From an uncultured Eubacteriaceae bacterium (GTDB lineage Bacteria; Bacillota; Clostridia; Lachnospirales; CAG-274): a stretch of DNA of 64,000 nucleotides. A program made the translations under genes and the position numbers. Location: the NCBI GenBank assembly GCA_947167715.1, contig CAMVJD010000009.1, positions 1 to 64,000 of the forward strand. Direction: 5' to 3'. The stretch's first letter is position 1, and each line of letters starts with the position of its first letter. Below the pieces are notes generated by a model. It was not told where the DNA came from. It worked only from the letters and a program-made list of their open reading frames with translations, and did not search any database. Of the stretch, positions 34 through 29,893 are shown piece by piece.

Positions 34-58
34 ACTTCCTTAGTTTGTTAAATTAGTG

Positions 59-3000
59 TTACTCGTTTGTCAAATATACATACTCATAACCATATTGCTG
101 AGCATAAAATTCTGCTTGTGGGGTGCTTATATACAGGACGCAGCTCGCTTCCGCAATCGCACCTTCAAAGCTTTGTGTATTTGTGGGTATAACAAGTTTT
201 TCAAGTGCCGTACAGCCTCTGAATGTGTCACGCTGAAGCTTTTTAAGCGACGGCGGCAAGGTCACATCCGTCAGGGCAGTGCAGTTCATAAACGCAGAAT
301 CATATATTACCATAGATGGATTGTTTTCAAACACGACCGATTTCAGTTCTTTACAAAATGCAAAGGCATCTCCGTATATTTTGTTATAATTTTGAGGAAT
401 TACAACCTCCCTGATATTTGATGAACGGAAAGCGGACTCATCGACAGCGTTTATCCGTACACCGTTTACTTCCTCCGGCAGTGTGCCGCCTAAATAATCA
501 TCCGAGCAGCCCACTATTCTGCCTCTTGTCAAATCGACATAAATGGTTCCACTCGCTGTTTTATACGGATAATATGTGTCACTTGTTATGATTTCTGTTG
601 TTGTTTCGGTCGTCGTTTCTGTAGTGGTTTTTGTTGTAGTCTCTGTGGTTGATTCGATGGTGGTTTCTGTTGTGGTTATCAATTCGGCAGGCATTTTGTA
701 TGTGTCTACAAGTACTTTCTGCAATATCATTGCCGAATCACTTGCTGTCAAAACTCCGTCGGCATCGACATCAATATATCTCATATAATTATCGGTTTTG
801 CCTTCTATCGTCATTTTATAACTATCCACCAAAACTTTCTGTAAAACCATTGCCGAATCGCTTGCAGTCAGCACTCCGTCTGCATCGGCATCACCTATCA
901 CAAATCGTTCGTTATCAAGTGCCGTCAATGTGAAATTATCATAAAAAATAACGTCACTGCTGTTATTTCGCATTAAATAAGCGCTCTTAAAATTGGGCGA
1001 TGATATTCGTTCTTCGTCTATCGGTATATCATTTATATAATATCGTATAACACCCTTTTTCTTATTAACTTCTATTGCTAAGGTTCCCCAGTCATTAAAT
1101 GCCGATATGTATCGTTCCATATTTTCAAGATAAGTATCGCTTACTGTCTTGTAGGGATCCAAGGTCAGCGGATAGCTCTTGTTTTCCAACTTATCAACTT
1201 TTAAATCTACCGATACAATAAAATGTTCGGGGGTATACGGAAAATCGCATACATAAGGCCATGCATCGTTGCTGCCTATAGCTTCATTGGTCGCTACTCT
1301 TGTTTGATTTGAGCCCGTACCCTTAGTGGTAACTATTTTGTAATTACCGTGGTTTGTATGAAAGGTCTCCGTGTTTTCATCCGACTCAAAATCCTGCAAT
1401 GCAATAATTTCGCCCTTGTTTTTTCTCTCGTATCTTCCGAGGGTAACTATTTCTGTCAGGCTTTGTATTGCGGCATTTATTTCTTCATCGCTCGCAGCTT
1501 TATTTTTATAGACCTTTTCGGCATTGTTCAAAGCAGCTTTTATTCTGCTTTGAGAGTCATCTGTCAAATGGCTTATATCCATAGCTTTTATGCGGTCTAT
1601 ATCATCAAGAAGTGCCTTTTTAGTGCCGTATTTCAAGGAATTGACCGCAGAATAAATATCATCGGCAAGTGTCTTATAGTTTTCTTCATTCTTTTCTTCA
1701 AGCGCTTTCTTCCCGTCCAAAACAGCGTTATTCAGTAATTCTACACTTTCTTTTGTGTAGGGAATAGCGTCTGTAAGTTCCGCTTTTTCTATTGCGGCTT
1801 TAAGATATTCCTCGTCAGACATGATAAGTGTGTCAAGTGCGATTTTTAATTCGGCGGCCACATTATCTACCTGCGCCTGTGTCGGAGCGGTCAGGTCATA
1901 TACATTTTTTGCCTGTGTAAGTTTATTTTGCAGAGTTTCCCAATCCTTTACCGCAAAAAGTGTGGGATCGGCTTTTTCGGCACTTTTTATCAATGCTTTT
2001 AATTCATTAAAATTAACGCTATAACCCGCATAATGGTCTTTTATTATGTCATTTGCATAGTTTTCAAGGTTTGTGTAACCGTTTGCGGCAATATTGGCGC
2101 TGTCAAAAGCATTGGGGTCAAGACTGTTTGCCTGTTCCCATTTGTCGGGTATTCCGTCATTATCTGTATCGGCTTCTTTCACACCGTGCAAAGGTGTATA
2201 ACCGCCCACATCCTCGGGCGAGTCGATAAGCCCATAGCCCGAAGTATGTCCCGTCTGCATAGTGCCGTTGATAACGTCATTTATTATCCTTTGGTCGGTA
2301 TCATCCCTGAAATAGCTTGCGCCGACATTTTTCAAAACCGTATTGTACGCATCTTCCGCAGTCTGGGTATTTACAGGAAAATCGTTTATGTATTGATCGT
2401 TAGGCCAAAGCTTGCCGCTGTCGTCCGTAAAGCCGTCCGAAATGCTTTCGCATTTTGTTCCGTAATTTATATTTGCAACGCCCAGCCAGTTGTTTTCGGT
2501 CATATTGTCGCGGCCTTCCATTATATTTCCGTCAACGTGAATTGTTGTTCCGTACTTTTTGGAGCCCTGCCACACCTCGTAAAAGCGGATGTTTTTTGCT
2601 ATCGAGGTCGGCTTGTAATAGTTATTTACAAAATTTACCCTTACGCCGTTTTCGCCGCCGTAGCCTGCCTCTTCACGCCAGTTATAAAAAACATTGTTGC
2701 GTATATCCACAAGGCTTTCATAGTCGGGCGTACCTTGATATGAGCTTACGGTCGCACTCGTTCCTATCCTCGGCATACGGCTTTTATGCGATGATATAAG
2801 GTTATGGTGGAAGCTTGCGTTTATACCGCCCCAGATACCGCCGTAGCCGTGAGCGCCTTTGCTGTGATTTGAAACATTAAGGCTTTCGCTTATAATGCAG
2901 TATTGTGCAGTAAAATCCTTGTTTTCGTAAGCCGAAAGACACTCGTCCACCGACCAGTTCACAGAACAGTGATCGACAATAAAATTTGTACATTTTCTTA

Positions 3001-3445
3001 CGCCCAATCCATCCTCCTGCGAATAGCAGGTATCTCCCGGGCGTATGCGGATATATCTTAAAATAACATTATCACAGTTTGAAAACAAAACGCTTTCGCC
3101 CGCAATACAGATACCCTCTCCGGGTGCTGTCTGCCCGAGTATAGTTATATTGTCAATATCTTTTATATCCAAAATCGACTCCAGACGGACATTGCCCGCA
3201 ACATCAAAAACAACTATCCTGTTACCCTTTGATACCGCATCACGAAATGAGCCTTTGCCGCTGTCCTTAAGGTTTGTAACATGGTACACCTCAATATTCT
3301 CCGCCGCACGCGACCCCTTTGAATACATACCGCCACCCTCGGCACCGGGAAAGGCCGGCAGTTTGTCCGCCGCATAAGCAGGGCTGTTTACACAAGGCAT
3401 TGCCAAAGCCGCCGCAAGCATAAAAGACAATATTCTTTTTTTCAT
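59..3445 (-). CDS. Secreted pectate-lyase-like protein with dockerin pair, Thr/Glu-rich linker and C-terminal BspA-type (LRR_5) repeats
   Basis: Signal peptide MKKRILSFMLAAALAMPCVNSPAYA; FPGAEGGGMYSKGSRAAEN pectate-lyase N-terminus; GDADADGVLTASDSAMVLQKVL x2 dockerin repeats; TTETTTESTTETTT linker; DSAFMNCTALTDVTLPPSLKKL LRR_5-like repeats. Confidence 0.9.
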   Translation of the reverse strand: MKKRILSFMLAAALAMPCVNSPAYAADKLPAFPGAEGGGMYSKGSRAAENIEVYHVTNLKDSGKGSFRDAVSKGNRIVVFDVAGNVRLESILDIKDIDNITILGQTAPGEGICIAGESVLFSNCDNVILRYIRIRPGDTCYSQEDGLGVRKCTNFIVDHCSVNWSVDECLSAYENKDFTAQYCIISESLNVSNHSKGAHGYGGIWGGINASFHHNLISSHKSRMPRIGTSATVSSYQGTPDYESLVDIRNNVFYNWREEAGYGGENGVRVNFVNNYYKPTSIAKNIRFYEVWQGSKKYGTTIHVDGNIMEGRDNMTENNWLGVANINYGTKCESISDGFTDDSGKLWPNDQYINDFPVNTQTAEDAYNTVLKNVGASYFRDDTDQRIINDVINGTMQTGHTSGYGLIDSPEDVGGYTPLHGVKEADTDNDGIPDKWEQANSLDPNAFDSANIAANGYTNLENYANDIIKDHYAGYSVNFNELKALIKSAEKADPTLFAVKDWETLQNKLTQAKNVYDLTAPTQAQVDNVAAELKIALDTLIMSDEEYLKAAIEKAELTDAIPYTKESVELLNNAVLDGKKALEEKNEENYKTLADDIYSAVNSLKYGTKKALLDDIDRIKAMDISHLTDDSQSRIKAALNNAEKVYKNKAASDEEINAAIQSLTEIVTLGRYERKNKGEIIALQDFESDENTETFHTNHGNYKIVTTKGTGSNQTRVATNEAIGSNDAWPYVCDFPYTPEHFIVSVDLKVDKLENKSYPLTLDPYKTVSDTYLENMERYISAFNDWGTLAIEVNKKKGVIRYYINDIPIDEERISSPNFKSAYLMRNNSSDVIFYDNFTLTALDNERFVIGDADADGVLTASDSAMVLQKVLVDSYKMTIEGKTDNYMRYIDVDADGVLTASDSAMILQKVLVDTYKMPAELITTTETTIESTTETTTKTTTETTTETTTEIITSDTYYPYKTASGTIYVDLTRGRIVGCSDDYLGGTLPEEVNGVRINAVDESAFRSSNIREVVIPQNYNKIYGDAFAFCKELKSVVFENNPSMVIYDSAFMNCTALTDVTLPPSLKKLQRDTFRGCTALEKLVIPTNTQSFEGAIAEASCVLYISTPQAEFYAQQYGYEYVYLTNE

Positions 3446-3460
3446 CTTTATTCCCCTTTC

Positions 3461-6400
3461 TTACTTTTCGGCAGGCATAAAATATGACTCCTGCAAGGTC
3501 TTTTGCATTATCTCCGCCGCATCACTTGCGGTGATATATCTGTCCTTATCCACATCAATATATTTAAACCAATCATCGGTTTTATTTTGTATAGGCAGAA
3601 TGCTCTCTTCCGTAAGCGTTTTTTGCAGTACGAATGCGGCATCGCTTGCTGTTATACTGCCGTCCGCATCGGCATCGCCGTATAAAAACGGCTTATTCGA
3701 TACATTAAGCTTGAATATATTTATATTGCCAAGTCGGCTGCCCTTATTTTCAATAAAGGTATATAAATTATACGAATCGAGCTTTGGCGCGGAGAGGTCG
3801 CAGGCGGTAAGCTTTTTACAATTTCCCGCATTTTCCGTTATACATTTTTTATATACAAGCGCATTGTTTAAATATACGGTCAAAACCCCTGTTTCTTCAT
3901 TGTAATTGCTGTACACGGTGTTTCGTTTTCCCTCGACAAACGGTGGATTTTTTATATCATCGCTATTCAGGGTAAACTTTTTATTGTCAAACGCTATTCT
4001 CATATATCTGTCATCATCCACCGCATTATCCATTACAATACAGCAATCCCACTTATTTTCAAGCTCGTAGCGAAACAGCATAGTATCGGAGTTTTCGTCA
4101 TCAAGCATAAGATCCGCGGAAAGATATGTATCATTGTCAATTTTTTCAAGCGGCAGGGGGATAACGGTATCTATCGCGGGGCGAATATAGGTGCTGCCGT
4201 TTTCCGTAACATATTCGGCGTTTATATCCCCGCGCTTCGCTTCAAGATCCTCGGTATAAACGATCGACTTATAGCCGTCCTTGTATTCAAGCCCTATCAG
4301 CGCATTTTTGACCTTATCGTAAAACTTTAAGGCCGCATCATTTTCCCCGCTTTGGGTCTGCGACAGTTCAAGTCCCTCGGCTTTGAGTGTTTCTGCGTCC
4401 TTTTGGGACTTATCCGTTAAGCTGTCCCTTGCAAACAAGCCGTCCGACAGATAGAAAACAGCATTTTTTAATGTGGTATTATCCAAAAGCACCATTTTCT
4501 TTGACGTTTCATCAATTTTGCTCATCATATCGCGCATTTGTGCATTTGTGGCATCGGGGCTTGCGGCAAGCGCATCCGCCTCGTCTATCACCTGCTGCAT
4601 AAGCTGTGTCGAGGAGCTTGTATATCTGCCGCTTGTAATGTACTGCGCCCTTGCATCCTCTTTTTTTTGCTTAAATTCCTCCAAAAGCGATTCTTCAAGG
4701 CTGTCCAGAGCCGACTGCAAAAGCTCGGCATCTTCTTTGAAAAGCTCGTTGTCCTCTTCCTCTTCAAGGTCTGTTTTTGACTTATTAATTGCCGACATCA
4801 AAGCATCAAGGCTTTCGCGCGAATACTGCTGCGGCTCAAAGCCGCTTATTTTCTGTTCCGTTTCGGCAACAAGCCTTTCCAGAATATTTCTGTACCTTGG
4901 AACAAGCGAATCAAGCATATTATTCAGCTTTTCGGTCTCGTCGTTGATCTCGTCCTGATCTTCGCTTGTGCCGAGAATAATTTTTGCCGTTTCCGTTTCG
5001 GCATCTATCTTTTTTATATCCTCCTCTTCAAATTTCCACCTTTCAAGATACATGGAACGCGACACGGCAAGCCCCAATTCGACCCGGTTTACCTTAATTT
5101 CGGTAAAGCTTTCAACAAGGCTGTTTGCATACAGCTCAATATTTGTATATCCGCTTGATGATATCTGCGCCGCATCTGACGGGTCGTTTTTGTCAAGGCC
5201 GTTGTTATCCTCCCAGCTGTCGGGTATGCCGTCAAGGTCGGTATCCTCGGGCTTTTTTCCCCCTTGCAGCCAGCACCAGCCGCCCACATCGTATACGCTG
5301 TCAACAAAGCCTATACTGCCGTTGCTGCCGTTTGGATATACGCCGTTTTTAACATTTTTTACAACTCGCTCATCTATGGTATCACGGTGCAGGCTTGCAC
5401 CCGCATATTTCAAAACATCAGTGTACGCTTCTTCTGCGGTCTGCGTTTTTACGGGATAATCCGAAAGGTATTGATCGTTTGGCAGGAGAACCTCGGGAAC
5501 CTCTTTGTCGGTCTCTTCAAACCCGTGCATAACAACGCCTTTTTCCGAAATGTTTTCACGTTTTATCCACCAATATTGACCGTTGCTGAAAAAGTCAAGC
5601 CCTTTATAATTATCATCGGTAAGGTCCTTCATACCTTCCATTACATTTCCGCTTAAATGTAAGGTTGTCGATTGACTGTCAACACCGTCTATACAAGAAT
5701 TTCTTCCGCTGTAAAACTCGTAAAATGTATGCACTATTGCAATATCGGTCGGTTTAAAATAGTTGTTTACAAAATTTACCCTGACACCGTTTTCTCCGCC
5801 GTAGCCCGCATTTTTACTCCAACTGTATATAACATTGTTTCTTACATCGATAAGTGCTTCGGTATCGGGTACGGATGCACGTAGCGTTTCGGTCGAGCCT
5901 ATGCGCGGGTTTCTGCTTTCGTTATTTGCAAGCAGATTATGGTGAAAACTTGCATTTGTGCCGCCCCAAAGACCGCCGTAGCCGTGGGTGCCCTTTGCAT
6001 GGGTAGACTTGCGCAGTGCCTCGCTGATAATATTCCATTGTGCGGTAAAATCTGTGCTTCCGTACCAGCTTAAAAGCTCGTCCACAGACCAGCTTATCGA
6101 ACAATGGTCGATGATCACATTGCTGCAGCCCTTGCCGCCCAGACTGTCCTCGTAGCTGCCTTCGCCGCTTCTGAAACGCAGATAGCGTATAATGATATTG
6201 TCGGCATATTCAAACTGTACGGAATTGCCGCCTATACAAACCCCCTCACCCGGCGCGGTTTGTCCCAGTATCGTCAAATTGCTTGATTTTACTATTATTT
6301 TATTTTCAAGCATAATATTTCCCGCAACATCAAAAACTATTATTCGGTTACTTTGCGAAACCGCATCACGGAATGAGCCATCGCCGCTGTCATCCAAATT

Positions 6401-10020: not shown

Positions 10021-10029
10021 ATACTTAAA

Positions 10030-10160
10030 AAAACTATTTCATTTTTGCCCCGATCGTGGTATACTTATTATATCATATCGGGGCTCTTTTAATGAAAAAA
10101 AGCATTTTATATGAGTGTTAAAAAACGAGACGGCAAAAATCAGATTTTGCCGGAAATCTT
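10030..10160 (+). pseudogene. Remnant of a tyrosine integrase gene start (upstream hairpin plus first codons), copy of 27975-28095
   Basis: 'ctatttcatttttgccccgat..' hairpin leader and 'atgagtgttaaaa.acgaga.cagcaaaaatc' match the leader and first codons of the intact integrase at 28060. Confidence 0.8.
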
Positions 10161-10163
10161 GAA

Positions 10164-10230
10164 AACATCGGCATTTGGAAAGGTTTGAGAAAATGATAAA
10201 AATAATGTTCGTCTGTCACGGCAATATGTG
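10164..10230 (+). repeat. Direct repeat of 5' end of LMW phosphatase gene (candidate attL)
   Basis: 63 of 67 positions identical by eye to 29406-29472, including a 42-bp identical core; encodes only MIKIMFVCHGNMCKF then stop. Confidence 0.85.
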
Positions 10231-10310: not shown

Positions 10311-10621
10311 AAATAAAAAGGCAGAAATTTATATTTTGAAATGAGCTTCGATATGATAAACCACTAAAACCTGCAAGTTGCGGCTTGTGGGTTTTATTTT
10401 TCTGCCACGGGATATCAGTAAATCGTGACAGAAAAAATCGTCTTGAATTATTATTACGCATAAGAAGAAAATAATATAAAAAACCTACAAGATGTAATTA
10501 TCCAAGTTTTAAAACTTTAAATAGCCTTATAAATTTTAAATTATGTTTTTAAATTTAAAATTCAATTGACATATTTAAAATTTTGTGTTAATATTTTAAA
10601 TATAAGGCGGTGAAATTTAAA

Positions 10622-12064
10622 ATGAATGAGACAGAATTAAAAAATATTGTAAAAAGAATTCAAAATGCCCAAGCCGAGTTTCAAACAGTCGAAGTAAAAC
10701 GAAGCAAGACCAAGGCGACCGAAAGGCTGTTTGATACCTTATCCAGTTTCTCTAATCAGGATGACGGCGGCGTTATAGTGTTTGGCTTGTACGAAAGTGA
10801 GGGCTTTACCGTGACGGGTGTGGATGATGTTCAGGAACTTCAAAAAAGCGTGATGAATCAGTGTATGCAAATGGAACCTCCCGTAAGAGCTGTTTTTACG
10901 GTTGCGGAGATAGACGGGAAAAATGTTGTTTCGGCGGAAATACCGCCCATTGACATAACGGAACGCCCTTGTTTTTATAAAGGAAAAGGGCGACTTAAAG
11001 GGTCGTATGTGCGTGTTGGTGAAGCCGACCAGCCTATGAGTGAATACGAGGTGTACAGTTTTGAAGCGTACCGCAAAAAGTATCAGGATGATATTCGTAT
11101 CGTTGAAAGAGCGGAAATAACATCGCTTTCCGGCGATAAGCTTGAAAACTATCTGAAACTTTTAAAAACAGACAAGCCGAACCTCGGTAATCTTGAAGAC
11201 AATCAGATAATGGAACTTATGAGCGTTATAAGGGAGAACAAACCTACTCTTGCAGCAGAGTTTTTGTTTGGACTTTACCCACAGGCGTTCTTTCCTCAAC
11301 TCGGTATTATAGCGGTATCAGTTCCGGGTACAGAGGTCGGTGATACCGATGTCGATGGTTCAAGATTTATAGATAATCAGCGTATTGAGGGCACGATCCC
11401 CGAAATGGTAGATGCAGCACTGCATTTTGTTCGAAAGAATATCCGTAAAAAAACCATCGTCGATCCCGAAACGGGCAAACGCAACGATAAAATGGATTAC
11501 CCTATAAATTCCGTTCGTGAGGCGGTGCTTAATGCCCTTGTACACCGCGACTACAGTATTCACACAGAGGGTATGCCGGTGCAGCTCAGTATATTTGCAG
11601 ACCGTCTTGAAATAACAAATCCCGGTGGTCTTTACGGCAGGCTTACTATCGATACACTCGGCAAGATACAGCCCGACACAAGAAATCCCGTACTTGCCAC
11701 GGCGCTTGAAGTTATGGACGTTACAGAAAACCGCTATTCAGGTATACCGACAATACGCAGAGAACTGAAAGAACATGGTTTGCCCGCTCCCGAATTTCGC
11801 AATGAGCGCGGGGAGTTTACCGTATGTTTCAGACTTGGCGAAAAGAATGTGGATGCCGGTACGGGAAAAGATATAATCAATTTCTGTAAAATACCGAGAA
11901 CCCGCCAGGAAATAGCGGAGTATATCGGTCTTGGCTCGGTGACTTACGCAATGAAAAAGTACGTTCAGCCACTTGTGGATAGTAAAAAGATAAAACTGAC
12001 TATCCCCGATGCACCATCCAGCCCAAATCAGAAATATTATTCGGGAGCTGTTGCTGGAAATTAA
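10622..12064 (+). CDS. AlbA_2/Schlafen-like ATP-binding (putative DNA-binding) protein
   Basis: ETVEVKRSK...LSSFSNQDDGGVIVFGLYE AlbA_2 signature; SVREAVLNALVHRDYSIHTEGMPVQLSIFADRLEITNPGGLYGRLT HATPase_c_4-like region. SD AAGGCGGTGA favours ATG at 10622. Confidence 0.85.
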   Translation: MNETELKNIVKRIQNAQAEFQTVEVKRSKTKATERLFDTLSSFSNQDDGGVIVFGLYESEGFTVTGVDDVQELQKSVMNQCMQMEPPVRAVFTVAEIDGKNVVSAEIPPIDITERPCFYKGKGRLKGSYVRVGEADQPMSEYEVYSFEAYRKKYQDDIRIVERAEITSLSGDKLENYLKLLKTDKPNLGNLEDNQIMELMSVIRENKPTLAAEFLFGLYPQAFFPQLGIIAVSVPGTEVGDTDVDGSRFIDNQRIEGTIPEMVDAALHFVRKNIRKKTIVDPETGKRNDKMDYPINSVREAVLNALVHRDYSIHTEGMPVQLSIFADRLEITNPGGLYGRLTIDTLGKIQPDTRNPVLATALEVMDVTENRYSGIPTIRRELKEHGLPAPEFRNERGEFTVCFRLGEKNVDAGTGKDIINFCKIPRTRQEIAEYIGLGSVTYAMKKYVQPLVDSKKIKLTIPDAPSSPNQKYYSGAVAGN

Positions 12065-12402: not shown

Positions 12403-12774
12403 CTAATCTAAATATATATATGATTGTGGTGCCTGATTAACTCCAAAATCAATAAGTTTTTTAGGAGTTTCATATATTACAACATTTTTCAATTTATAGG
12501 CAAAAGCTTTATTTTTTCCATCATAATAGGAAAAATAGAATTTTTTAGTTATTCCGGCTGCGGTTTTTGCAATTTCCCAAATTTCTTCTGGTGTTCCCTC
12601 TAAAATCTTGTCTATAGTAGCTTCTCCGACGATTTGTTTTTGAGGGGATGAAGCATAGAAAATAATGCGGTCTACACAATTTTTAGGTTTGTTCTTTCTG
12701 AATTCATATTGTTTTTTTCCTTCTAATATTACTTTAGCATATTTTGGTTTAATCGATAATAACATTGTTGACAT
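12403..12774 (-). CDS. ASCH/PUA-like domain protein
   Basis: MLLSIKPKYAKVILEGKKQYEFRKNKP...IIFYASSPQKQIVGEATI, ASCH fold motif. Confidence 0.8.
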   Translation of the reverse strand: MSTMLLSIKPKYAKVILEGKKQYEFRKNKPKNCVDRIIFYASSPQKQIVGEATIDKILEGTPEEIWEIAKTAAGITKKFYFSYYDGKNKAFAYKLKNVVIYETPKKLIDFGVNQAPQSYIYLD

Positions 12775-13852
12775 TAATGTTACCCTCCCATAATATTTGT
12801 TTGAATTCGTTTGGTGAAAGTCTAATTAACGCGGGATATATACCCCCGTGGCTTTTACTCCAATATCCATTAGCTTCGAGTGTATTATTGTTAATATTAT
12901 TACCTTCACCAAAATAGCCATAATAGAGCATTTCTATGACGAACATATGATTATTATTATCATATTGCATTTTTAGTTCATCTTTATCAAATACCGACTT
13001 ATTGCTAATTCTTTGAAGTAGTTCACTAAAAGACATAAAGAATTTCCTGTTTTGTTTAACCATGATTACATCTGTAACAATACAAAAAGATGTAATACAC
13101 GATTTATATTTTTTTGAGCCTTCACCAGTGTGAATGCGGTAAATGAAAATAGGTTCTCCGATTTTATATGGTGGTTGGGTATATTGAGCTCCAACATAAA
13201 TCTTACTAAGACCATTTCTTACGTTTAGCGCAACGTAACTTTGTAAAGTATTTTTCAGTTCCGAATACGGAAACATAGTATCATGATAATTATCATTGAT
13301 TAGCAAGTAGCCTGCATTTTGAAAATTGGGATTTATAAATGGAAATGATTTATATGGATTAGAATAATCTACATTTTTTCTGCTTCTTAGATACACACCT
13401 TCGTTATTGGAGTTATAGCCAATTTTGTTAAATCCAAATTTTGTTAATTGGGAAATTAAAACATCTTGTTTGTCAAACGCCGTTACATATACTTCTTCAT
13501 GTTCCAGTTGTTGCCATTTCCATAGCACAAGGCCAATAGCCCCTTCTCCAAGACGTTGACCGCGAAAGCGTTCGGCAATTTTTATTGTACTTATTTTACA
13601 ACGCATTATTTCCGGTAAGGAGTGATTCTGAAGTATAATACTTTCTTTTTCTGATTTAATAGATATAAAAGCACCGAGGCCATCTTCATCATTAAAAACA
13701 AGTGCAGTTCTTCCTTCGTTTGCCTTCTCCACAAACCATTTATCAAACGAAGGTGTCTTATCATTACCGGGATAGTCAGACTTTAAAGAATCAAAAAAAT
13801 GATCATTCAAATCAATATCGCTAAATTTTTTGAGAGAAAATTTCCCCGCCAC
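12749..13852 (-). CDS. GNAT N-acetyltransferase with C-terminal PUA/EVE-like region
   Basis: KISTIKIAERFRGQRLGEGAIGLVLWKW acetyl-CoA loop; C-terminal KIGEPIFIYRIHTGEGSKKYKSCITSFCIV; overlaps the ASCH gene by 26 nt. Confidence 0.75.
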   Translation of the reverse strand: MAGKFSLKKFSDIDLNDHFFDSLKSDYPGNDKTPSFDKWFVEKANEGRTALVFNDEDGLGAFISIKSEKESIILQNHSLPEIMRCKISTIKIAERFRGQRLGEGAIGLVLWKWQQLEHEEVYVTAFDKQDVLISQLTKFGFNKIGYNSNNEGVYLRSRKNVDYSNPYKSFPFINPNFQNAGYLLINDNYHDTMFPYSELKNTLQSYVALNVRNGLSKIYVGAQYTQPPYKIGEPIFIYRIHTGEGSKKYKSCITSFCIVTDVIMVKQNRKFFMSFSELLQRISNKSVFDKDELKMQYDNNNHMFVIEMLYYGYFGEGNNINNNTLEANGYWSKSHGGIYPALIRLSPNEFKQILWEGNINVNNVIID

Positions 13853-14134: not shown

Positions 14135-14971
14135 ATGAGAAATAATAAAATGAGATTTTCAGATTCGCTAGAAATATATAATTTATTTAAAAATAAAAAT
14201 TGGCAGATAGTTGAAGACAATAAGCATAGTTTATTTAATCGCTTTGTTAACCTGTTTAATTCTCTTAATGATGATAAACAGAGAAAATTATTAATAAAAC
14301 TTGCCAGTGAATATAAAACAATTCGTTTGGAACAATATAAAGAAAAAATGATAACAATCCTAAAACAGATCATAAAGAATGAATTTTCGCAATCACGGGC
14401 TATAAATATTATGCCTATCAAACTGCAAGAAGACCAATATACTGTTAAAAGTTCAGATTTTGTTAGTTATTTAATTAATTTAATTGATTTTAAATATGAA
14501 GATGAATTAGGTAGTAAAAATTATCATATAATAGGTTCGTTTTCTGAATTGAAAAAGAATAAAAATAAATTTCAAAGTAAAGATATTATAATAATAGATG
14601 ATTTTATAGGAAGTGGAGAATATGCATCAGGCGTTATAAAAGAAATAAACGATTTAGGAATAAACAATAAAAACATCATCATAACATCTTTATTTATAAC
14701 ACAAAGAGCGATTAATGTTTTATCCAGCTTAACCCCTAAAATTAAACTGTATTATGGAGAAATCGCTGAATCTCTTTTAAATTCTATTGATGAAAGTGAA
14801 AAAGAAACATTATTAGAAATAGAAAAATTACTAAATATTGATGGAAAATTTAGTCTGGGGTATGGTCAATGTGGATGCGGTATTACATTGATTAGAACGC
14901 CTAATAATACATTGCCTTTATTTTGGGTTGACGATAAGAATAAAACTAGAGCCCCATTCCCAAGAAATTGA
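14135..14971 (+). CDS. Retron-associated phosphoribosyltransferase-like protein (PRTase-CE type)
   Basis: IIIIDDFIGSGEYASGVIKEI, PRTase PRPP-loop-like motif (DDxxGSG); C-terminal FSLGYGQCGCGITLIRTPNNTLPLFW; immediately upstream of wHTH, ncRNA and retron RT. Confidence 0.8.
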   Translation: MRNNKMRFSDSLEIYNLFKNKNWQIVEDNKHSLFNRFVNLFNSLNDDKQRKLLIKLASEYKTIRLEQYKEKMITILKQIIKNEFSQSRAINIMPIKLQEDQYTVKSSDFVSYLINLIDFKYEDELGSKNYHIIGSFSELKKNKNKFQSKDIIIIDDFIGSGEYASGVIKEINDLGINNKNIIITSLFITQRAINVLSSLTPKIKLYYGEIAESLLNSIDESEKETLLEIEKLLNIDGKFSLGYGQCGCGITLIRTPNNTLPLFWVDDKNKTRAPFPRN

Positions 14972-14988
14972 ACTAAGGAGATAACTAT

Positions 14989-15297
14989 ATGGACTATGAT
15001 ATAAATGATATACTATTATTATTAGTTTCAATAAAAAAAACAGATCTCATATCGGATTATTTATTTGAAAACTTAGGTACTCTTAAAATTGCTAAAATAT
15101 GCGAATTTGCATTAGAAAACAATTACATAATTAATAACAATGGAATGTATTCTTTAACAAGCGATGGAGAAAACTATATAGAAAAGCTAAACAAAGATTT
15201 GAAAAAAAGGGGAATAGACAAGTGGATTGTGATTCCATCTAATTATAAAATCGACAAAATATCATTAGAATATATTTACTTACCTAACAAAATATGA
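14989..15297 (+). CDS. Small putative winged-helix protein of retron locus
   Basis: 102 aa; IAKICEFALENNYIINNNGMYSLTSDGENYIEKLNK resembles a wHTH with beta-wing; 17 nt after the PRTase stop. Confidence 0.6.
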   Translation: MDYDINDILLLLVSIKKTDLISDYLFENLGTLKIAKICEFALENNYIINNNGMYSLTSDGENYIEKLNKDLKKRGIDKWIVIPSNYKIDKISLEYIYLPNKI

Positions 15298-15303
15298 TAT
15301 AAT
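15298..15303 (+). promoter_or_regulatory. Candidate -10 box (TATAAT) for the retron ncRNA
   Basis: Perfect TATAAT 7 nt before the candidate ncRNA start (about 15310-15311). Confidence 0.55.
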
Positions 15304-15309
15304 ATATTT

Positions 15310-15522
15310 AGTGTTTTGCAAGTGTGTGATTTCCCTGAAATCTAGTAATACGAGTCGTATTGCGAATGTAATGTATGTTTCAAGCCCTGCAAGCAGAATT
15401 CTTTCGAAAGGGATTTCAAAATAATTCTGCTTTGCATGCAACAACTTAAGTTGTTGCACACGACATACGATGAAAGTTTATGCTTTCATCGTATGTCGTA
15501 GGATATTTTTAGTTGCAACACA
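15310..15522 (+). ncRNA. Retron msr-msd ncRNA
   Basis: a1 GTGTTTTGCAA (15311-15321) pairs with a2 TTGCAACAC (15513-15521) with 2-nt bulge; msr hairpins GATTTC-CCT-GAAATC (15328-15342) and AATACG-AGT-CGTATT (15347-15361); AAGCAGAATT/AATTCTGCTT stem (15391-15400/15423-15432); 22-nt palindrome 15437-15458; perfect 16-bp hairpin 15461-15498; located just 5' of the RT. Confidence 0.88.
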
Positions 15523-15541
15523 TCTATCTGAGGCGATAAAA

Positions 15542-16585
15542 ATGGATAAAAATCAATATATTAATGCATTACAGCAAAAATGCAAAGAAACCAAAAAAAG
15601 TGATAAATACACAACCAAAGTAATTAAATATGCAGAAAACCTACTAGAAAAAGGTATGCCAGTTATTTTTGATCCTACTCATTTTAGTATGCTTGTAGGA
15701 TATAAGACAGAATTTCTATACGCAATAACAAATAGTCAATCGGATTTTTATAGGCATTTTAAAATTCCTAAAAAAAATGGCAAAAAACGTTGTATTTCAG
15801 AACCGTTGCCGGCTCTTAAAGAAATCCAATATTTTATTTTAAATAATATTTTATTAAATGATAAATGCCACGATTGTTCAAAAGCATACAGAAAAAATGT
15901 ATCTATTAGAGACAATGCGAGATTTCATCGAAACCAAAAGATAATTTTAAAAATTGATATTAAGGATTATTTTCCTTCTTTATCAGAGTCTTTAGTTTTT
16001 GATTATTTCACAAGTCTTGGATATAGCAAAGCTTTGACAACTCTATTGACGAAATTATGTGTTCTTGACCATGGGTTGCCTCAGGGAGCACCAACAAGTC
16101 CATATTTGTCCAATCTTTTAACCCAAAAAATGGATAATATGATTTTTGAATTATGTAGAAAGAATACTTCTCCTTTGCGATATACACGATATGCTGATGA
16201 TATTACAATATCTGGTGACTTTGATGTTAAAGAAATAATAAAAAAAACATTGACAATTATATATAATAATGGCCTTACTCCTAATTATGATAAAATATCA
16301 GTAATTAGAGATAATAAAAGCCAAATAGTTACCGGCATTGCAGTAAACAAGGTTATCCAGGCTCCTAAAAATTATCGTAAAGATATCCGTAAGCAGATGT
16401 ATTATATAAATAAATTCGGAATAATAGAACATATTAAATATTCAAAAATTGATTTGCCACCCCAAAAGTTCTGTCAACAGTTATTGGGAAAAATAAATTA
16501 TTGCCTACAGATTAATAATAAAGATAGTGAAATGATAAAATATAAGGATGATTTAACAAAAATTATCAAACAAAACTTGTTATAA
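15542..16585 (+). CDS. Retron reverse transcriptase
   Basis: NARFH (NAxxH, 15914-15928), GLPQGAPTSPYLSNL, YTRYADDITISG (YADD 16190-16201), IVTGIAVN (VTG 16328-16336). ORF track start 15470 lies inside the msd hairpin; ATG at 15542 has upstream GAGG. Confidence 0.96.
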   Translation: MDKNQYINALQQKCKETKKSDKYTTKVIKYAENLLEKGMPVIFDPTHFSMLVGYKTEFLYAITNSQSDFYRHFKIPKKNGKKRCISEPLPALKEIQYFILNNILLNDKCHDCSKAYRKNVSIRDNARFHRNQKIILKIDIKDYFPSLSESLVFDYFTSLGYSKALTTLLTKLCVLDHGLPQGAPTSPYLSNLLTQKMDNMIFELCRKNTSPLRYTRYADDITISGDFDVKEIIKKTLTIIYNNGLTPNYDKISVIRDNKSQIVTGIAVNKVIQAPKNYRKDIRKQMYYINKFGIIEHIKYSKIDLPPQKFCQQLLGKINYCLQINNKDSEMIKYKDDLTKIIKQNLL

Positions 16586-16798: not shown

Positions 16799-16878
16799 TA
16801 AAAACATATCAGCAACGTCGCACGCCATCACCGACATGGTTTTTATTAAATTATTTATACGGATTTTAGCCGGTGGTC

Positions 16879-19800
16879 TTAATCAGTTGTCAGATACACA
16901 TATTCATATCCGTTTTGCTGGGCATAAAATTCCGCCTGCGGGCTGCTTACATAAAGTATACAGTCCGGTTCCGCTATCATTCCCGAGAATTGTTGTGTGT
17001 TTGTCGGTATCACAAGTTTTTCAAGGGAAGTACAGCCTTTGAATGTGTTTTGCATCCTCTTTAAAGACGGCGGCAATGTTACATCCGTCAGGGCGGTACA
17101 GTTCATAAATGCCGAATTATATATTGTCATAGAAGGATTATCTTCAAATATAACCGATTTTAGTTTTTTGCAGTTTTTAAAAGCACCCGACGCTACCGTA
17201 TTATAGTTTTGAGGAATTATTATATCTTCAATATCGGAATTTGCAAAAGCATCCGATTCAACATAATTTATCGTCACTCCATTCACTTCTTCGGGTAAAG
17301 CTCCTCCCGAATAATCATCCGCACAGTCAACTACCATTCCGTTTATAAGATCGACAAATATTGTTCCGTTTGCGGTCTTATACGGATAATAAGTATCGCC
17401 CGTGGTGGTCTCGGTGGTGGTTTCTTCCGTGGTCGTTTCGGTAGTGGTCTCTGTGGTTGATTCGGTTGTGGTTTCGGTTGTGGTTATCAATTCGGCAGGC
17501 ATTTTATAAGTGCTGACTAAAACCTTTTGTAGAATAACCGCCGAATCACTTGCAGTTATCACACCATCCGCATCCGTATCTATATAGTACAGATAATTAT
17601 CGGTCTCATTTTCAATAGGCAGAGTGAAAGTTGATACAAGAACTTTCTGTAAAACCATTGCCGAATCACTTGCAGTCAAAACTCCGTCTGCATCTGCATC
17701 GCCTATCACAAATCGTTCGTTATCAGGTGCCGTTAATGTGAAATTATCATAAAAAATAATATCACTGCTATTGTTTCTCATTAAATAAGCACTATTGAAA
17801 TTGGGCGATGATATTCGTTCTTCGTCTATCTGTATATCATTTATATAATATCGTATAATACCCTTTTTCTTATCAACTTCTATTGACAAAGTTCCCCAAT
17901 CGTCAAATGCCGATATATATCGTTCCATACTTTCAAGATAAGTATCGCTTACTGTCTTGTAAGGATCTAATGTCAACGGGTAACTCTTATTTTCCAATTT
18001 ATCAACTTTTAAATCTGCCGATACAATAAAATGTTCGGGAGTATACGGAAAATCGCATACATAAGGCCATGCACTGCCGCTGCCCATAGCTTCATTGGTC
18101 GCTACCGATGTTTGATTTGACCCCGTTCCTTGCGTTGTAATTATCCTGTAGTTTCCGAAACTTGAATGGAAAACTTCCGTATTTTCGTCGGATTCAAAAT
18201 CCTGCAAAGCAATAACTTCACCTTTGTTTTTTCGCTCGTATCTTCCGAGAGTTACTATTTCAATAACACTTTGTACTGCGAGATCTATTTCTTCATCTGT
18301 TGCATCAGCGTTTTTATAGACCTTTTCGGCATTATTCAAAGCGGTTTTTATTCTGCTTTGAGAGTCCTCTGTCAAATAGCTTAGATCCTTTGCTTTTATG
18401 CGGTCTATTTCGTCAAGAAGCGCCTTTTTTGTGCCGTATTTCAAGGAATCGATCGCAGAATAAATATCATCGGCAAGTGTCTTATAGTTTTCTTCATTCT
18501 TTTCTTCAAGCGCTTTCTTCCCGTCCAAAACAGCGTTATTCAGTAATTCTACACTTTCTTTTGTGTAGGGAATAGCGTCTGTAAGTTCCGCTTTTTCTAT
18601 TGCGGCTTTAAGATATTCCTCGTCAGACATGATGAATGTATCAAGTACGGTTTTTAATACTGCGGCCGCATTATCCACCTGCGCCTGTGTAGGAGCGGTA
18701 AGGTCATAAATTCTTTTTGCCTGTGCAAGTTTATCCTGCAAGGCTTCCCAATCTTTTGACGAGAAAAACATAGGGTCGGCATTCTCTGCCTTTTTTATCA
18801 ATGCTTTTAATTCATCAAAATCAACGCCATAGCCCGCATAATAACCTTTTATTATGTCATTTGCATAGTTTTCAAGGTTTGTATAACCGTTTGCAGCTAT
18901 ATTGGTGCTGTCAAAAGCATTGGGGTCAAGGCTGTTTTTATTTTCCCATTCATCGGGTATGCCGTCACTGTCTGTGTCAAGTTTCTTCGTGCCATGCAAA
19001 GGCGTATAACCACCGACATCATCGGGTGAGTCGATAAGCCCATAGCCCGAAGTATGTCCCGTCTGCATTGTGCCGTTGATAACATCGTTTATTATCCTTT
19101 GGTCGGTATCATCCCTGAAATAGCTTGCGCCGACATTTTCCAATACCGTATTATACGCATCTTCCGCAGTCTGAGTATTTACGGGATGATCCGATATATA
19201 TTGGTCATTGCGCCAAAGAGTTCCCTTGTCATCGGTAAAGCCGTCCGAAATACTTTCGCATTTTGTTCCGTAACCGATATTTGAAACGCCGAGCCAGTTG
19301 TTTTCGCTTATACTGTCGCGCCCTTCCATTACATTCCCGTCAACGTGTATTGTTGTTCCGTATCTCTTTGAACCCTGCCACACATCATAAAAACGGATAT
19401 GTTTTGCTATTGATGACGGCTTGTAATAGTTATTTACAAGATTTACTCTGACGCCGTTTTCGCCGCCGTAGCCTGCTTCATCACGCCAGTTATAAAAAAC
19501 ATTGTTGCGTATATCAACAAGACTTTCATAGTCGGGTGTGTCCTGATATGAGTGTACGGTTTCGCTTGTGCCTATTCTCGGCATACGGCTTTTGTGCGAG
19601 GATATAAGATTATGATGAAAACTTGCGTTTATACCGCCCCAGATACCGCCGTAGCCGTGAGCACCTTTGCTGTGATTTGAAACATTAAGGCTTTCGCTTA
19701 TAATGCAGTATTGTGCAGTAAAATCCTTGTTTTCGTAAGCCGAAAGACACTCGTCCACCGACCAGTTCACAGAACAGTGATCGACAATAAAATTTGTACA

Positions 19801-20259
19801 TTTTCTTACGCCCAATCCATCCTCCTGCGAATAGCAGGTATCTCCCGGGCGTATGCGGATATATCTTAAAATAACATTATCACAGTTTGAAAACAAAACG
19901 CTTTCGCCCGCAATACAGATACCCTCTCCGGGTGCTGTCTGCCCGAGTATCGTGATATTGTCAATATCTTTTATATCCAAAATCGACTCCAGATGGACAT
20001 TGCCCGCAACATCAAAAACAACTATTCTGTTACCCTTTGAGACCGCATCACGGAAAGAGCCTTTCCCGCTGTCGTTTAGGTTTGTAACATGATACACCTC
20101 AATATTCTCCGCTGCCCTTGCTCCCAAAGAATACATACCGCCGCCCTCTGCACCGGGGAAGGCAACTATTTTTTCTTCGGCATATATGTATGCGCAATTT
20201 ACAGAAGTAAAAAGCAATACTGCCGATAATAAGATACTGATACTTTGTTTAAATTTCAT
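16879..20259 (-). CDS. Secreted pectate-lyase-like protein with dockerin pair, Thr/Glu linker and LRR_5 C-terminus (paralog of 59-3445)
   Basis: Nearly collinear protein with 59-3445; GDADADGVLTASDSAMVLQKVL and ETTTETTTEETTTETTT linker. Confidence 0.9.
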   Translation of the reverse strand: MKFKQSISILLSAVLLFTSVNCAYIYAEEKIVAFPGAEGGGMYSLGARAAENIEVYHVTNLNDSGKGSFRDAVSKGNRIVVFDVAGNVHLESILDIKDIDNITILGQTAPGEGICIAGESVLFSNCDNVILRYIRIRPGDTCYSQEDGLGVRKCTNFIVDHCSVNWSVDECLSAYENKDFTAQYCIISESLNVSNHSKGAHGYGGIWGGINASFHHNLISSHKSRMPRIGTSETVHSYQDTPDYESLVDIRNNVFYNWRDEAGYGGENGVRVNLVNNYYKPSSIAKHIRFYDVWQGSKRYGTTIHVDGNVMEGRDSISENNWLGVSNIGYGTKCESISDGFTDDKGTLWRNDQYISDHPVNTQTAEDAYNTVLENVGASYFRDDTDQRIINDVINGTMQTGHTSGYGLIDSPDDVGGYTPLHGTKKLDTDSDGIPDEWENKNSLDPNAFDSTNIAANGYTNLENYANDIIKGYYAGYGVDFDELKALIKKAENADPMFFSSKDWEALQDKLAQAKRIYDLTAPTQAQVDNAAAVLKTVLDTFIMSDEEYLKAAIEKAELTDAIPYTKESVELLNNAVLDGKKALEEKNEENYKTLADDIYSAIDSLKYGTKKALLDEIDRIKAKDLSYLTEDSQSRIKTALNNAEKVYKNADATDEEIDLAVQSVIEIVTLGRYERKNKGEVIALQDFESDENTEVFHSSFGNYRIITTQGTGSNQTSVATNEAMGSGSAWPYVCDFPYTPEHFIVSADLKVDKLENKSYPLTLDPYKTVSDTYLESMERYISAFDDWGTLSIEVDKKKGIIRYYINDIQIDEERISSPNFNSAYLMRNNSSDIIFYDNFTLTAPDNERFVIGDADADGVLTASDSAMVLQKVLVSTFTLPIENETDNYLYYIDTDADGVITASDSAVILQKVLVSTYKMPAELITTTETTTESTTETTTETTTEETTTETTTGDTYYPYKTANGTIFVDLINGMVVDCADDYSGGALPEEVNGVTINYVESDAFANSDIEDIIIPQNYNTVASGAFKNCKKLKSVIFEDNPSMTIYNSAFMNCTALTDVTLPPSLKRMQNTFKGCTSLEKLVIPTNTQQFSGMIAEPDCILYVSSPQAEFYAQQNGYEYVYLTTD

Positions 20260-26153: not shown

Positions 26154-27719
26154 ATGGCTTATGTGAAACTATCGCAAATCAAATCGGAGGGATATCTGAA
26201 ACGGGCGATAAATTATATTCTTAATCCAAAGAAAACCGAAAACGGAATGAACACAGCTTCTTATATGTGCAGCACGGAATATGCTGATATTGAATTCAAT
26301 GAGGTACGAAAGCTGGCCGTAAAGCAAGGCAAGGTTATTGCGCACGAAATATATCAGTCATTTTCGCCCGAGGATGATATAACGCCGCAAAAGGCATTGG
26401 CTATCGGGCGCGAACTTATGCGGCGAACATTTCCCGACTTTCAGTATGTGATAGCCACGCATAATGACAAGGAGCATATACACAACCACATAATAATCTG
26501 TTCTGTAAATTTCGATAACTTTCATATGTTCCCGAATAAACTTGCTACTTTGGAAAGAGTACGGCAGGTAAGCAACGAATTGTGCAAGGAATATGGATAT
26601 TCGGTTATTACGCCAAATCCTAAAGGGCATAGAGAAAAATTAAAAGCGGTAATTGATGAAATAATTAAAAACTGCGATACATACAATGATTTTTTCAGAG
26701 AACTGAAAAAGCGGGGCTATGAAATTAAAATAGGAAAATATATTTCCTTAAAAGGCATTGGGAATAAATCGTTTATAAGAACGGCTACACTTGGCTCGGC
26801 TTACACCGATAAAAATATCCGCAAGAGGATTGAGGAAAAGGCGGTTATAGAAAATGTCGAGAGGAATGTTTATGCTAATGCTGCAAAGAAAATGCTGCAT
26901 AGATTAAGGCTGAAAAGATTTATAAATGAAAATCTGAAAACGGCGAAAGATTTTGATAGTTTTATTTTGCTGATGCAGAAAGATTATTCTGTAAAGTTTG
27001 GAAAGCATTTAGCCTTTAAGCATACCACGGGCAGGCGTTTTCTTCGTCTTGACAGTTTGGGCGAGGAATACTCGGAAGAAATGCTGCGATTATATTTCAG
27101 CGATCCTACTGAATACAAAACTCGTCTTGACGAAATTTCGGCAAGGAAAATATCACGATTAAAGGCAGATGATGAAACCACAAACCGATACACCCACATC
27201 AAAGCTGCCAATACGGAAATCAAAATGCTTAACTACCTCCACGCTTACAATATAGAAAGCTATGAGGTACTTACAGCAAATATATTCATTCTTGAAAAAC
27301 GTATAGCGAACTATAAGAGCGATATTCAAAAAATCAACGCTCAAATATCGGCAAGTCGCAGCATAACAAACGCTGTAAGGGAATACTGGAGATATAAGCC
27401 TGTCTATCAAAAGTATCTGTCCATAACAGAAGAGAGCGCAAAAGAAGTATACCTGCAAAACTACTCGGCAGAGATTGCTAAATATAAAAATGCCGTGGAG
27501 GTTATGAACAACTCAAAAATAAACGGTGTTTTACCTCGGTCGTCAGTACTCAAATCCGAAATTCTGAAATTTACAGAAGATAAAGAAAATATTTCAGCCA
27601 AGCAGGACAAATTGTTGCTTGAACTGGAACGCCTTAAAACTATCAAGCATAATGCCGATATTATTTTGGGAACTGACATCCCAAAAACCTCAAAACATTA
27701 TTGCAACCAAGAAAGATAA
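26154..27719 (+). CDS. MobA/VirD2-family relaxase
   Basis: FQYVIATHNDKEHIHNHIIICSVNF (HxH relaxase motif III), KLSQIKSEGYLKRAINYILNPKKT N-terminus. Confidence 0.92.
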   Translation: MAYVKLSQIKSEGYLKRAINYILNPKKTENGMNTASYMCSTEYADIEFNEVRKLAVKQGKVIAHEIYQSFSPEDDITPQKALAIGRELMRRTFPDFQYVIATHNDKEHIHNHIIICSVNFDNFHMFPNKLATLERVRQVSNELCKEYGYSVITPNPKGHREKLKAVIDEIIKNCDTYNDFFRELKKRGYEIKIGKYISLKGIGNKSFIRTATLGSAYTDKNIRKRIEEKAVIENVERNVYANAAKKMLHRLRLKRFINENLKTAKDFDSFILLMQKDYSVKFGKHLAFKHTTGRRFLRLDSLGEEYSEEMLRLYFSDPTEYKTRLDEISARKISRLKADDETTNRYTHIKAANTEIKMLNYLHAYNIESYEVLTANIFILEKRIANYKSDIQKINAQISASRSITNAVREYWRYKPVYQKYLSITEESAKEVYLQNYSAEIAKYKNAVEVMNNSKINGVLPRSSVLKSEILKFTEDKENISAKQDKLLLELERLKTIKHNADIILGTDIPKTSKHYCNQER

Positions 27720-27756: not shown

Positions 27757-27972
27757 TTGAAAATTGCAAATGACATTGCTTTACCGTGGTGGGAGAAATA
27801 CACATTGACAATAAAAGAGGCATCAATGTATTTCGGAATAGGCGAAAAGACTTTAAGGCGCTTTATCCGTGAACACAAGGACGAAAGTTTTGTGTTCTAC
27901 AACGGAACAAAAGCGCAGATAATCAAAAAGGATTTTGAAAAATATATAAGCAATAACCTTGCGGTCATTTAA
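27757..27972 (+). CDS. xis: Tn916-type excisionase
   Basis: LTIKEASMYFGIGEKTLRRFIREHKDESFVFYNGTKAQIIKKDFEKYI; directly upstream of integrase. Confidence 0.88.
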   Translation: MKIANDIALPWWEKYTLTIKEASMYFGIGEKTLRRFIREHKDESFVFYNGTKAQIIKKDFEKYISNNLAVI

Positions 27973-28059
27973 AATTACTATTTCATTTTTGCCCCGATTG
28001 TGATATACTGTTTATATATCATATCGGGGCTCTTTCTATGAAAGGAAAGGAGCATTACT

Positions 28060-29271
28060 ATGAGTGTTAAAAGACGAGACAGCAAAAATCGCATTTTACA
28101 CAACGGAGAGAGCCAAAGAAGTGATGGCAGATATATGTACAAGTACACCGATAATTGGGGAAGGGTAAAATATATTTACAGTTGGAAACTTGTAAGAACA
28201 GACACTCTTCCTGTCGGTATAAAAGAAGATGTAGCTTTGAGGGATAAGATAAAGCAGCTGCAAAGAGATATGGATGACGGTATAGTCCCGTGTGGTGGAA
28301 ATTACACCGTGCTTGAACTTGTCAAAAAGTATTTGTCGCAGAAAACAGGCGTAAAAGAGAACACAAGAGCCAACTACAACTTTGTTCTCAATATTCTCAA
28401 AAAAGAGGATTTCAGCGGCAAAAGAATAGACAAAGTCAAGTTATCCGATGCAAAAGCGTTTCTCATTAAACTGCAAAGCGATGGCAGGGGTTACAGTTCC
28501 ATACATTCTATCAGAGGAGTGTTAAGACCCGCCTTTCAAATGGCTGTTGATGATGATTTGATACGCAAAAATCCCTTTGAGTTTCAGCTTGTGACGGTTG
28601 TTGTAAATGACAGCGTAACAAGAGAGGCGATTACAAGAAAACAGGAAAGAGCGTTTCTCGAATTTGTCAAAAACGATAAGCACTTCAGTAGGTATTATGA
28701 GGGTATTTACATACTGTTTCATACCGGACTGCGTATTTCGGAATTTGTCGGTCTGACAATAGATGATATAGACTTTAAAAATGATGTTATAAATGTTGAC
28801 CACCAGCTTCAGCGCAAAAGAAATATGGAGTACATAATAGAAACTACCAAAACCAACAGCGGAACAAGGCTTGTGCCTATGACAGCAGAGGTCAAGGAGT
28901 GTTTCAAGCGTATTATCGAAAACAGAAAAAGCCCGAGAAAAGAGCCTGTTGTCTATGGCAAGCGCAAAAAGGCATATAAGGGTTTTCTGTATTTGGATAA
29001 AAACAATATGCCTATGGTCGCACTGCATTGGGAAAAGTATTTTCAGCATATCTGTCATAAATATAATTCAATTTATAAGGAAGAAATGCCAAAGGTAACG
29101 CCGCACGTTTGCAGACATACATTTTGCTCGAATATGGCTAAAGCAGGGACTAATCCCAAGACTTTGCAGAAAATAATGGGTCATTCGGACATAGGGGTCA
29201 CGCTCAACACTTACACTCATTTAGGTGTGGATGATATCAAAAGTGAGATGCAGAAATTGTGTGATTGGTGA
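28060..29271 (+). CDS. int: Tn916-type tyrosine integrase
   Basis: HTGLRISEFVGLTIDDIDF, TPHVCRHTFCSNMAKAGTNPKTLQKIMGHSDIGVTLNTYTHL catalytic R-HxxR-H-Y. Confidence 0.96.
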   Translation: MSVKRRDSKNRILHNGESQRSDGRYMYKYTDNWGRVKYIYSWKLVRTDTLPVGIKEDVALRDKIKQLQRDMDDGIVPCGGNYTVLELVKKYLSQKTGVKENTRANYNFVLNILKKEDFSGKRIDKVKLSDAKAFLIKLQSDGRGYSSIHSIRGVLRPAFQMAVDDDLIRKNPFEFQLVTVVVNDSVTREAITRKQERAFLEFVKNDKHFSRYYEGIYILFHTGLRISEFVGLTIDDIDFKNDVINVDHQLQRKRNMEYIIETTKTNSGTRLVPMTAEVKECFKRIIENRKSPRKEPVVYGKRKKAYKGFLYLDKNNMPMVALHWEKYFQHICHKYNSIYKEEMPKVTPHVCRHTFCSNMAKAGTNPKTLQKIMGHSDIGVTLNTYTHLGVDDIKSEMQKLCDW

Positions 29272-29332: not shown

Positions 29333-29405
29333 GCGGTAAAAATGTGCCGAATTATGCCAAATTATACCAACTTGTTATTAAGGTAAAATGTCGGCAAAGT
29401 CGCAA

Positions 29406-29472
29406 AACAACGGCGTTTGGAAAGGTTTGAGAAAATGATAAAAATAATGTTCGTCTGCCACGGCAATATTTG
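29406..29472 (+). repeat. Direct repeat spanning the start of the intact LMW phosphatase gene (candidate attR)
   Basis: 63/67 match by eye to 10164-10230. Confidence 0.85.
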
Positions 29473-29893
29473 CCGTTCGACAATGGCGGAATTTGTTATG
29501 GCGGACATGGCAAAAAAGGCGGGGCTTAAAATTGCGGTGGACTCGGCCGCGACAAGCCGCGAGGAGATAGGAAACGGAGTGCATCACGGCACCTTGCGCA
29601 AGTTAAGGGAAGTCGGCGTTCCTGTTTATCCGCACTATGCAAAGCAGCTGACCAAGGCCGATTACAAAAATTTTGATTATATAATCGGCATGGACGATTG
29701 GAATATGAAGAACATAAGGCGAATAGTGGGAGAGGACAGGGACAAAAAAGTCTTTATGCTTTTGGATTTTACCGCAAGAAAGGGGCAGAGCATTGCCGAC
29801 CCGTGGTATACGGGCAATTTTGATGTCACATACGATGACATAAAAGAGGGCTGCGAGGGGCTTTTACACTTTTTGAAAGAGCGTGATCGATAA
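29435..29893 (+). CDS. Low-molecular-weight protein-tyrosine phosphatase
   Basis: MFVCHGNICRSTMAE P-loop (CxxxxxR) and DPWYTGNFDVTYDDI. Confidence 0.93.
   Translation: MIKIMFVCHGNICRSTMAEFVMADMAKKAGLKIAVDSAATSREEIGNGVHHGTLRKLREVGVPVYPHYAKQLTKADYKNFDYIIGMDDWNMKNIRRIVGEDRDKKVFMLLDFTARKGQSIADPWYTGNFDVTYDDIKEGCEGLLHFLKERDR

Follow-up and report, generated by a model that had tools for sequence, protein, structure and literature searches.

A type III-A retron with a PRTase-like putative effector in an uncultured Eubacteriaceae bacterium

Introduction

Positions 14135-16585 of a 64,000-nucleotide stretch of DNA from an uncultured Eubacteriaceae bacterium (contig CAMVJD010000009.1; the whole stretch is called the window here) encode, all in the same orientation, a PRTase-like protein, a small winged-helix (WH) protein, a structured ncRNA and a retron reverse transcriptase (RT). 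This arrangement raises the question of what kind of system the locus encodes and how its parts might act together. A preliminary description, made from the letters of the DNA, read it as an intact type III retron with the PRTase-like protein as toxic effector. Type III-A reportedly belongs to the retron classification of Mestre et al. from 2020.

Results

Locus architecture and type assignment

The PRTase-like putative effector (278 aa, 14135-14971) and the WH protein (102 aa, 14989-15297) precede the RT on the + strand, at the coordinates first given for them. PADLOC III-A models match all three proteins (PRTase_III-A, E = 1.5e-67; WH_III-A, E = 2.1e-17; RT_III-A, E = 2.4e-130), which agrees with the type III assignment of the preliminary description. 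The profile searches that it had proposed for the RT, PRTase-CE and WH all returned matches, in PADLOC and, for PRTase-CE, also in Pfam (E = 5.2e-14). The type was assigned from the operon order and not from the PADLOC model alone because the PRTase_III-A models also match one ORC-CDC6-linked PRTase that is not part of a retron. Matches to all three proteins coupled with a conserved gene order put the locus far beyond chance, and it is almost certainly a complete type III-A retron. It is a new, well-conserved member of a catalogued type and not a new kind of system.

Conservation of the locus

Relatives were found by scanning one genome per species with the PRTase alone. Single-sequence scans of viral and genome collections recovered no relatives; alignment-based patterns succeeded. 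The 55 PRTase loci found include 49 with an RT downstream. An iterated profile located the WH protein directly in 44 loci, mostly between PRTase and RT, and PADLOC detected it in L160. PRTase, WH and RT stand in one order in Bacillota, Bacteroidota and Pseudomonadota. The PRTase-WH-ncRNA-RT order, on whose conservation the preliminary description had staked its reading, is kept across phyla. The type is rare near the host. The RT model matched loosely in 5 of 48 family genomes, host included, and the PRTase was found in the host only among 388 class genomes.

Relatives L164 (4093-6888) and L167 (4189-7064) are without an RT. In both, an ORC-CDC6-like ATPase gene lies directly downstream of the PRTase-CE gene, which in L167 is preceded by an adenine-methylase-like gene. 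This adjacency indicates that the PRTase module also serves alongside other probable sensors, which is what one would expect of an effector wired to different sensors.

The PRTase-like protein

The AlphaFold2 (AF2) model of the PRTase-like protein has a pLDDT of 94.9 and a pTM of 0.90. All sixteen Foldseek matches in the PDB with E < 0.001 are type I PRTases, among them uracil, hypoxanthine-guanine and orotate PRTases, and their TM-scores lie between about 0.3 and 0.5. The fold class is thus clear and the relation distant, and the model is a divergent version of the type I PRTase fold, predicted with confidence. Identity to aligned relatives is 21-36%.

Twelve residues are invariant in 48 homologues: K105, S106, D155, D156, G159, G161, G242, P256, N258, T259, W264 and R277. 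The IIIIDDFIGSG motif contains D155, D156, G159 and G161, which together with the intervening serine we take to be the PRPP loop of type I PRTases; K105-S106 could be the pyrophosphate loop. The carboxy-terminal signature TPNNTLPLFW...APFPR holds P256, N258, T259, W264 and R277 (PxNT..W motif). Retention of the invariant K105 S106, DD, GxG and PxNT..W residues makes a catalytic role likely, as opposed to that of a dead scaffold, judging from the alignment. A sequence search of the PDB returned no relative of the III-A PRTase (best E = 0.007), and the PRTase proteins of retrons are described as probable effectors of unknown action (PMC9122126). The early remark that the effector chemistry of this class is poorly characterised still holds.

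The winged-helix protein

The AF2 model of the WH protein is a winged helix of moderate confidence (pLDDT 77.5) with an unstructured tail. Its weak Foldseek neighbours are Sso10a, MarR-type regulators and other winged helices. They also include chains of the Retron-Eco1 complex (8qbk_F, 7v9x_C, 8qbl_G and 7xjg_J; E 0.16-0.37), although winged helices are common. The modelled likeness to these effector chains is weak and suggestive only.

The WH tail ends in IYLPNKI, and the motif [IV][YF][LIVF]P is present in 46 of 49 loci, the exceptions being L028, L147 and L153. The motif is kept although its codons differ, which indicates that selection acts on the protein sequence of the tail. The PRTases of L156 and L165 carry a fused WH-like extension, and both long proteins match the long III-A models of PADLOC. 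These fusions argue that PRTase and WH work together. The PADLOC match, the model, its structural neighbours and the tail motif are consistent with a probable msDNA-binding adaptor. It is possible, as a tentative reading, that the protein is a latch: the winged helix would hold the msDNA while the near-invariant C-terminal tail docks into the PRTase or the RT and silences the effector. Type III-A would then correspond, in split form, to those retron effectors in which a winged helix is built in.

The structural neighbours of the PRTase include PyrR, a regulator that shares the type I PRTase fold, and the WH model resembles DNA-binding domains of the MarR/CggR type. Both likenesses would suit a system in which the PRTase synthesises or degrades a nucleotide signal or acts as a regulator like PyrR, growth arrest is caused elsewhere and the WH protein is an ordinary transcription regulator of the operon. 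Such a division of labour is unlikely, since an effector fits better with the WH-like fusions in two relatives and with the pairing of PRTase relatives with ORC-CDC6-like ATPases.

The ncRNA

A putative internal promoter at 15275-15303 (+) ends just before the ncRNA arm a1. The consensus scan reads it as TTTACT-N17-TATAAT with an extended -10, and the WH stop codon TGA supplies the TG of TGATATAAT. The same TGATATAAT occurs at the WH stop in L115, L116, L122 and L123, with near-matches in L113, L114 and L118. The proposal rests on position and recurrence, because shuffles of the region yield promoter-like sites at least as often.

The fold of 15304-15526 has an energy of -81.5 kcal/mol (z = -8.5), and 0 of 200 shuffles were as low. 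The predicted msDNA strand (complement of 15384-15505) forms three hairpins (z = -13.0). The dense hairpin array that had been noticed before the RT is therefore borne out. The folds give msd hairpin 1 (15388-15436) 20 bp with small interruptions, hairpin 2 (15437-15458) 9 bp and hairpin 3 (15460-15499) 18 bp; relatives show a long hairpin at the places of hairpins 1 and 3.

The minimum-energy fold pairs a1 (15311-15324, predicted branch G near 15322) with a2 (15510-15523) over 12 bp, G-U pairs included, interrupted by U/C and G/G mismatches. The a1/a2 repeats of the preliminary description thus exist as a pairing stem, but their complementarity is imperfect, unlike that of most relatives. In 14 relatives with a similar gap, most a1/a2 arms form a stem of 9-22 bp whose sequence differs by lineage, and most Bacillota relatives have this stem uninterrupted. 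The window stem resembles a 9-bp stem plus two extra T in a run of four. Judged by eye, a1 stops just before a G in most relatives. Scoring the a1/a2 pairing by duplex energy across 49 loci was dropped as noisy, the two groups differing in ncRNA length, and run lengths were used instead.

The msr (15320-15388) holds hairpins 15328-15342 and 15345-15363 (GAGTC-type loop) and the conserved TTTCAAGCC. In a partner-shuffle test, for which arms were extracted by hand and the two extra T of the window omitted, 108 of 108 a1/a2 positions pair with their own partner versus a mean of 59.0 with others; the same comparison gives 55 of 56 versus 37.7 for the msr hairpin that has the GAGTC-type loop. A covariance model was used as a second test because the shuffle-test arms were hand-picked and the two extra T left out. 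The model was built from nine relatives with the window excluded, and its top-scoring match within the 2.6-kb locus is 15320-15388 (15.1 bits, E = 0.005; next match, 7.7 bits). A 520-kb search with this model matched 12 loci outside the training set, all with E < 0.02 and just upstream of an RT. The msr sequences of the window, L113 and L114 were absent from the matches of this search under default filters, which marks them as divergent members.

Covariation was assessed in 22 matched msr sequences, a structure-fitted alignment that excludes the window and has one row matched on the reverse strand. In this alignment 88.7% of cells pair (shuffled, 64.2%), and 65 cells changed on both sides (shuffled, 20.6). 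The covariation score of 0.718 falls to at most 0.181 when the partner is slid. Covariation in the relatives supports a structured ncRNA. RNAalifold predicted no structure from a first msr alignment, in which the arms were out of register, and a covariance model from three sequences recovered only the window, itself a training sequence. A search of Rfam with the ncRNA gave no match above the gathering score. Type III-A ncRNAs are described as a class (PMC12548924). The early expectation that this ncRNA is undescribed holds for its sequence, which is new and absent from Rfam, and fails for its class; it is a new sequence and not a new class. In L123, about 170 bp (~5650-5830) with inverted ends GAACTGTTCAAAAATAA...TTATTTTTGAACAGTTC split the msr hairpin, like a small transposable element.

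A decaying type III-A retron, left inactive because its imperfect a1/a2 stem yields hardly any msDNA or none, would account for the mismatches and two extra T of the window beside the unbroken stems of most Bacillota relatives. Decay is quite unlikely: all three genes are open and full length, the stem still forms in the minimum-energy fold, and the msr and the remaining hairpins are intact.

The reverse transcriptase

The RT hallmarks NARFH, RYADD and VTG are present as first reported, and alignment shows that key residues are invariant among four relatives. Pfam RVT_1 matches the protein. The NCBIfam model of the retron St85 RT matches with E = 1.3e-64 and 218 bits, slightly below its 235-bit cut-off. 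The best PDB match is the Retron-Eco1 RT (1.4e-36), followed by the Kva2 RT (2.1e-28). A group II intron maturase or DGR RT was considered and rejected, since the group_II_RT_mat model scores the RT at 61 bits versus a 300-bit cut-off and retron models score far higher.

The RT open reading frame begins at ATG 15470, which the preliminary description had taken as the start. This codon sits within msd hairpin 3, and the RTs of relatives align from the next ATG, 15542, which is preceded by GAGG. The RT is therefore assigned to 15542-16585 (347 aa).

A quick tree search of 135 RTs, with an arbitrary root and without DGR RTs, places 48 of the 52 PRTase-linked RTs in one clade (SH-aLRT 95) that includes the window RT. 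The tree needs four label changes, with L156, L160/L162 and L165 placed elsewhere. The window RT groups with L113 and L114 (SH-aLRT 99), and its identity to relatives is at most 53%. Its place in this tree within a clade of PRTase-linked retron RTs, coupled with the RT_III-A match, speaks against the possibility raised at the start that it might group with group II introns or DGRs. The host genome has a second reverse transcriptase domain outside the window (G000:C2:118810-119418, - strand; L001).

Genomic setting

A 69-bp direct repeat (94%) at 10162-10230 and 29404-29472 corresponds to the 5' end of a low-molecular-weight phosphatase gene, whose intact copy is at 29417-29893. The repeats bracket about 19 kb that contain the retron, a relaxase (26154-27719) and, at the right end, a Tn916-type integrase (28060-29271). 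This region is probably an integrative mobilizable element. At the phosphatase gene, genomes G032 and G031 likewise have this integrase or an element remnant. An empty insertion site was not found in the relatives, in which the same integrase is present, the contig ends there or the upstream DNA differs.

Beside the left repeat, 10025-10148 is a truncated copy of the integrase start together with its leader (84% to 27969-28097). It looks like the trace of an earlier element that occupied this place and lost its integrase. Two genes adjoining the retron (12403-13852, - strand) match the PADLOC candidate defence pair PDC-M11B (ASCH domain) and PDC-M11A, and a Schlafen/AlbA_2 + HATPase_c_4 protein is encoded upstream of the retron (10610-12064, + strand). 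Two large dockerin/LRR genes (56-3355 and 16876-20163) are 84% identical; one lies inside the probable element and one outside.

Discussion

Proposed mechanism

The best explanation of the locus as a whole is a complete III-A retron whose RT-msDNA-WH complex restrains a toxic PRTase until a phage disturbs it, a reading given a probability of about 0.65. The RT would use the ncRNA (~15311-15523) as both primer and template. Synthesis would start at the branch G near 15322 and proceed through the msd (~15388-15508), giving a three-hairpin msDNA of about 120 nt. A complex of RT, msDNA and WH would hold the PRTase-like enzyme inactive, with the WH protein probably acting as an adaptor that holds on to the msDNA and links it to the PRTase. 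A phage protein that acts on the msDNA by binding, modification or degradation, or that competes with WH, would release or remodel the PRTase. The freed enzyme would halt growth through a reaction on PRPP, nucleotides or a related ribosyl compound. Production of msDNA, complex formation, toxicity, trigger, chemistry and defence are what we infer for the window locus.

The coupling role proposed for WH draws on analogy with the type IX retron Kva2. There the HEPN effector is sequestered, a WH protein binds the msDNA around it, and release is triggered by a phage HTH protein (PMC13405049). Against the restrained-PRTase reading stand the a1/a2 stem of the window, weaker than that of most relatives, the weak likeness of the WH to Eco1 effector chains, and the matches of the PRTase_III-A models outside retrons. 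In addition, the III-A Retron-Bpu1 did not protect against any of 12 E. coli phages, and for type III-A in general the evidence for anti-phage activity and effector toxicity is thin (PMC12548924). A reversed arrangement, with WH as the toxin and the PRTase regulating or neutralising it, is very improbable. WH does come close to the PRTase in how constantly it occurs in the operon, but the invariant enzyme-like residues sit in the PRTase, the WH alignment has no invariant column, and in type IX the WH protein serves as a structural component that binds msDNA (PMC13405049).

Retrons with PRTase effectors are spread over several phyla, and such proteins also lie next to other probable sensors, yet their mode of action is described as unknown (PMC9122126). 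The invariant PRTase residues, the WH tail motif and the covariation-supported ncRNA make a poorly understood retron class testable by a few point mutants.

Comparison with known systems

Retron-Eco1 (Ec86), of type II-A, has the RT that is the best solved relative of the window RT, and chains of its complex are among the weak structural neighbours of the window WH. Its effector is nucleoside deoxyribosyltransferase-like and not a PRTase, and it is not known to have a separate WH gene. Retron-Kva2 shares with the window a separate WH next to effector, ncRNA and RT, and its RT is the next-best solved relative. It differs in its effector, a HEPN RNase and not a PRTase, and a profile search with the III-A WH did not recover the Kva2 WH.

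Two systems without a retron place a PRTase next to a probable sensor. The PRTase-CE genes of L164 and L167 stand beside ORC-CDC6-like ATPases and have neither RT nor ncRNA. The DprA-PRTase defence system of P2-like phages, which protects against T7 and lambda (PMC9122126), is likened to the window by description and, unlike the window, is also without RT or ncRNA.

Retron-Bpu1, which produces RT-DNA in E. coli, and Retron-Ppe1, which was not transformable and is presumed toxic (PMC12548924), are likened to the window by their III-A type and not by sequence alignment. Type III-A retrons have PRTase, WH, ncRNA and RT in the same order as the window, whose proteins match the III-A models. The window differs in its distant sequence (PRTase and RT identities to relatives as given above), its own msd hairpins and its imperfect a1/a2 stem.
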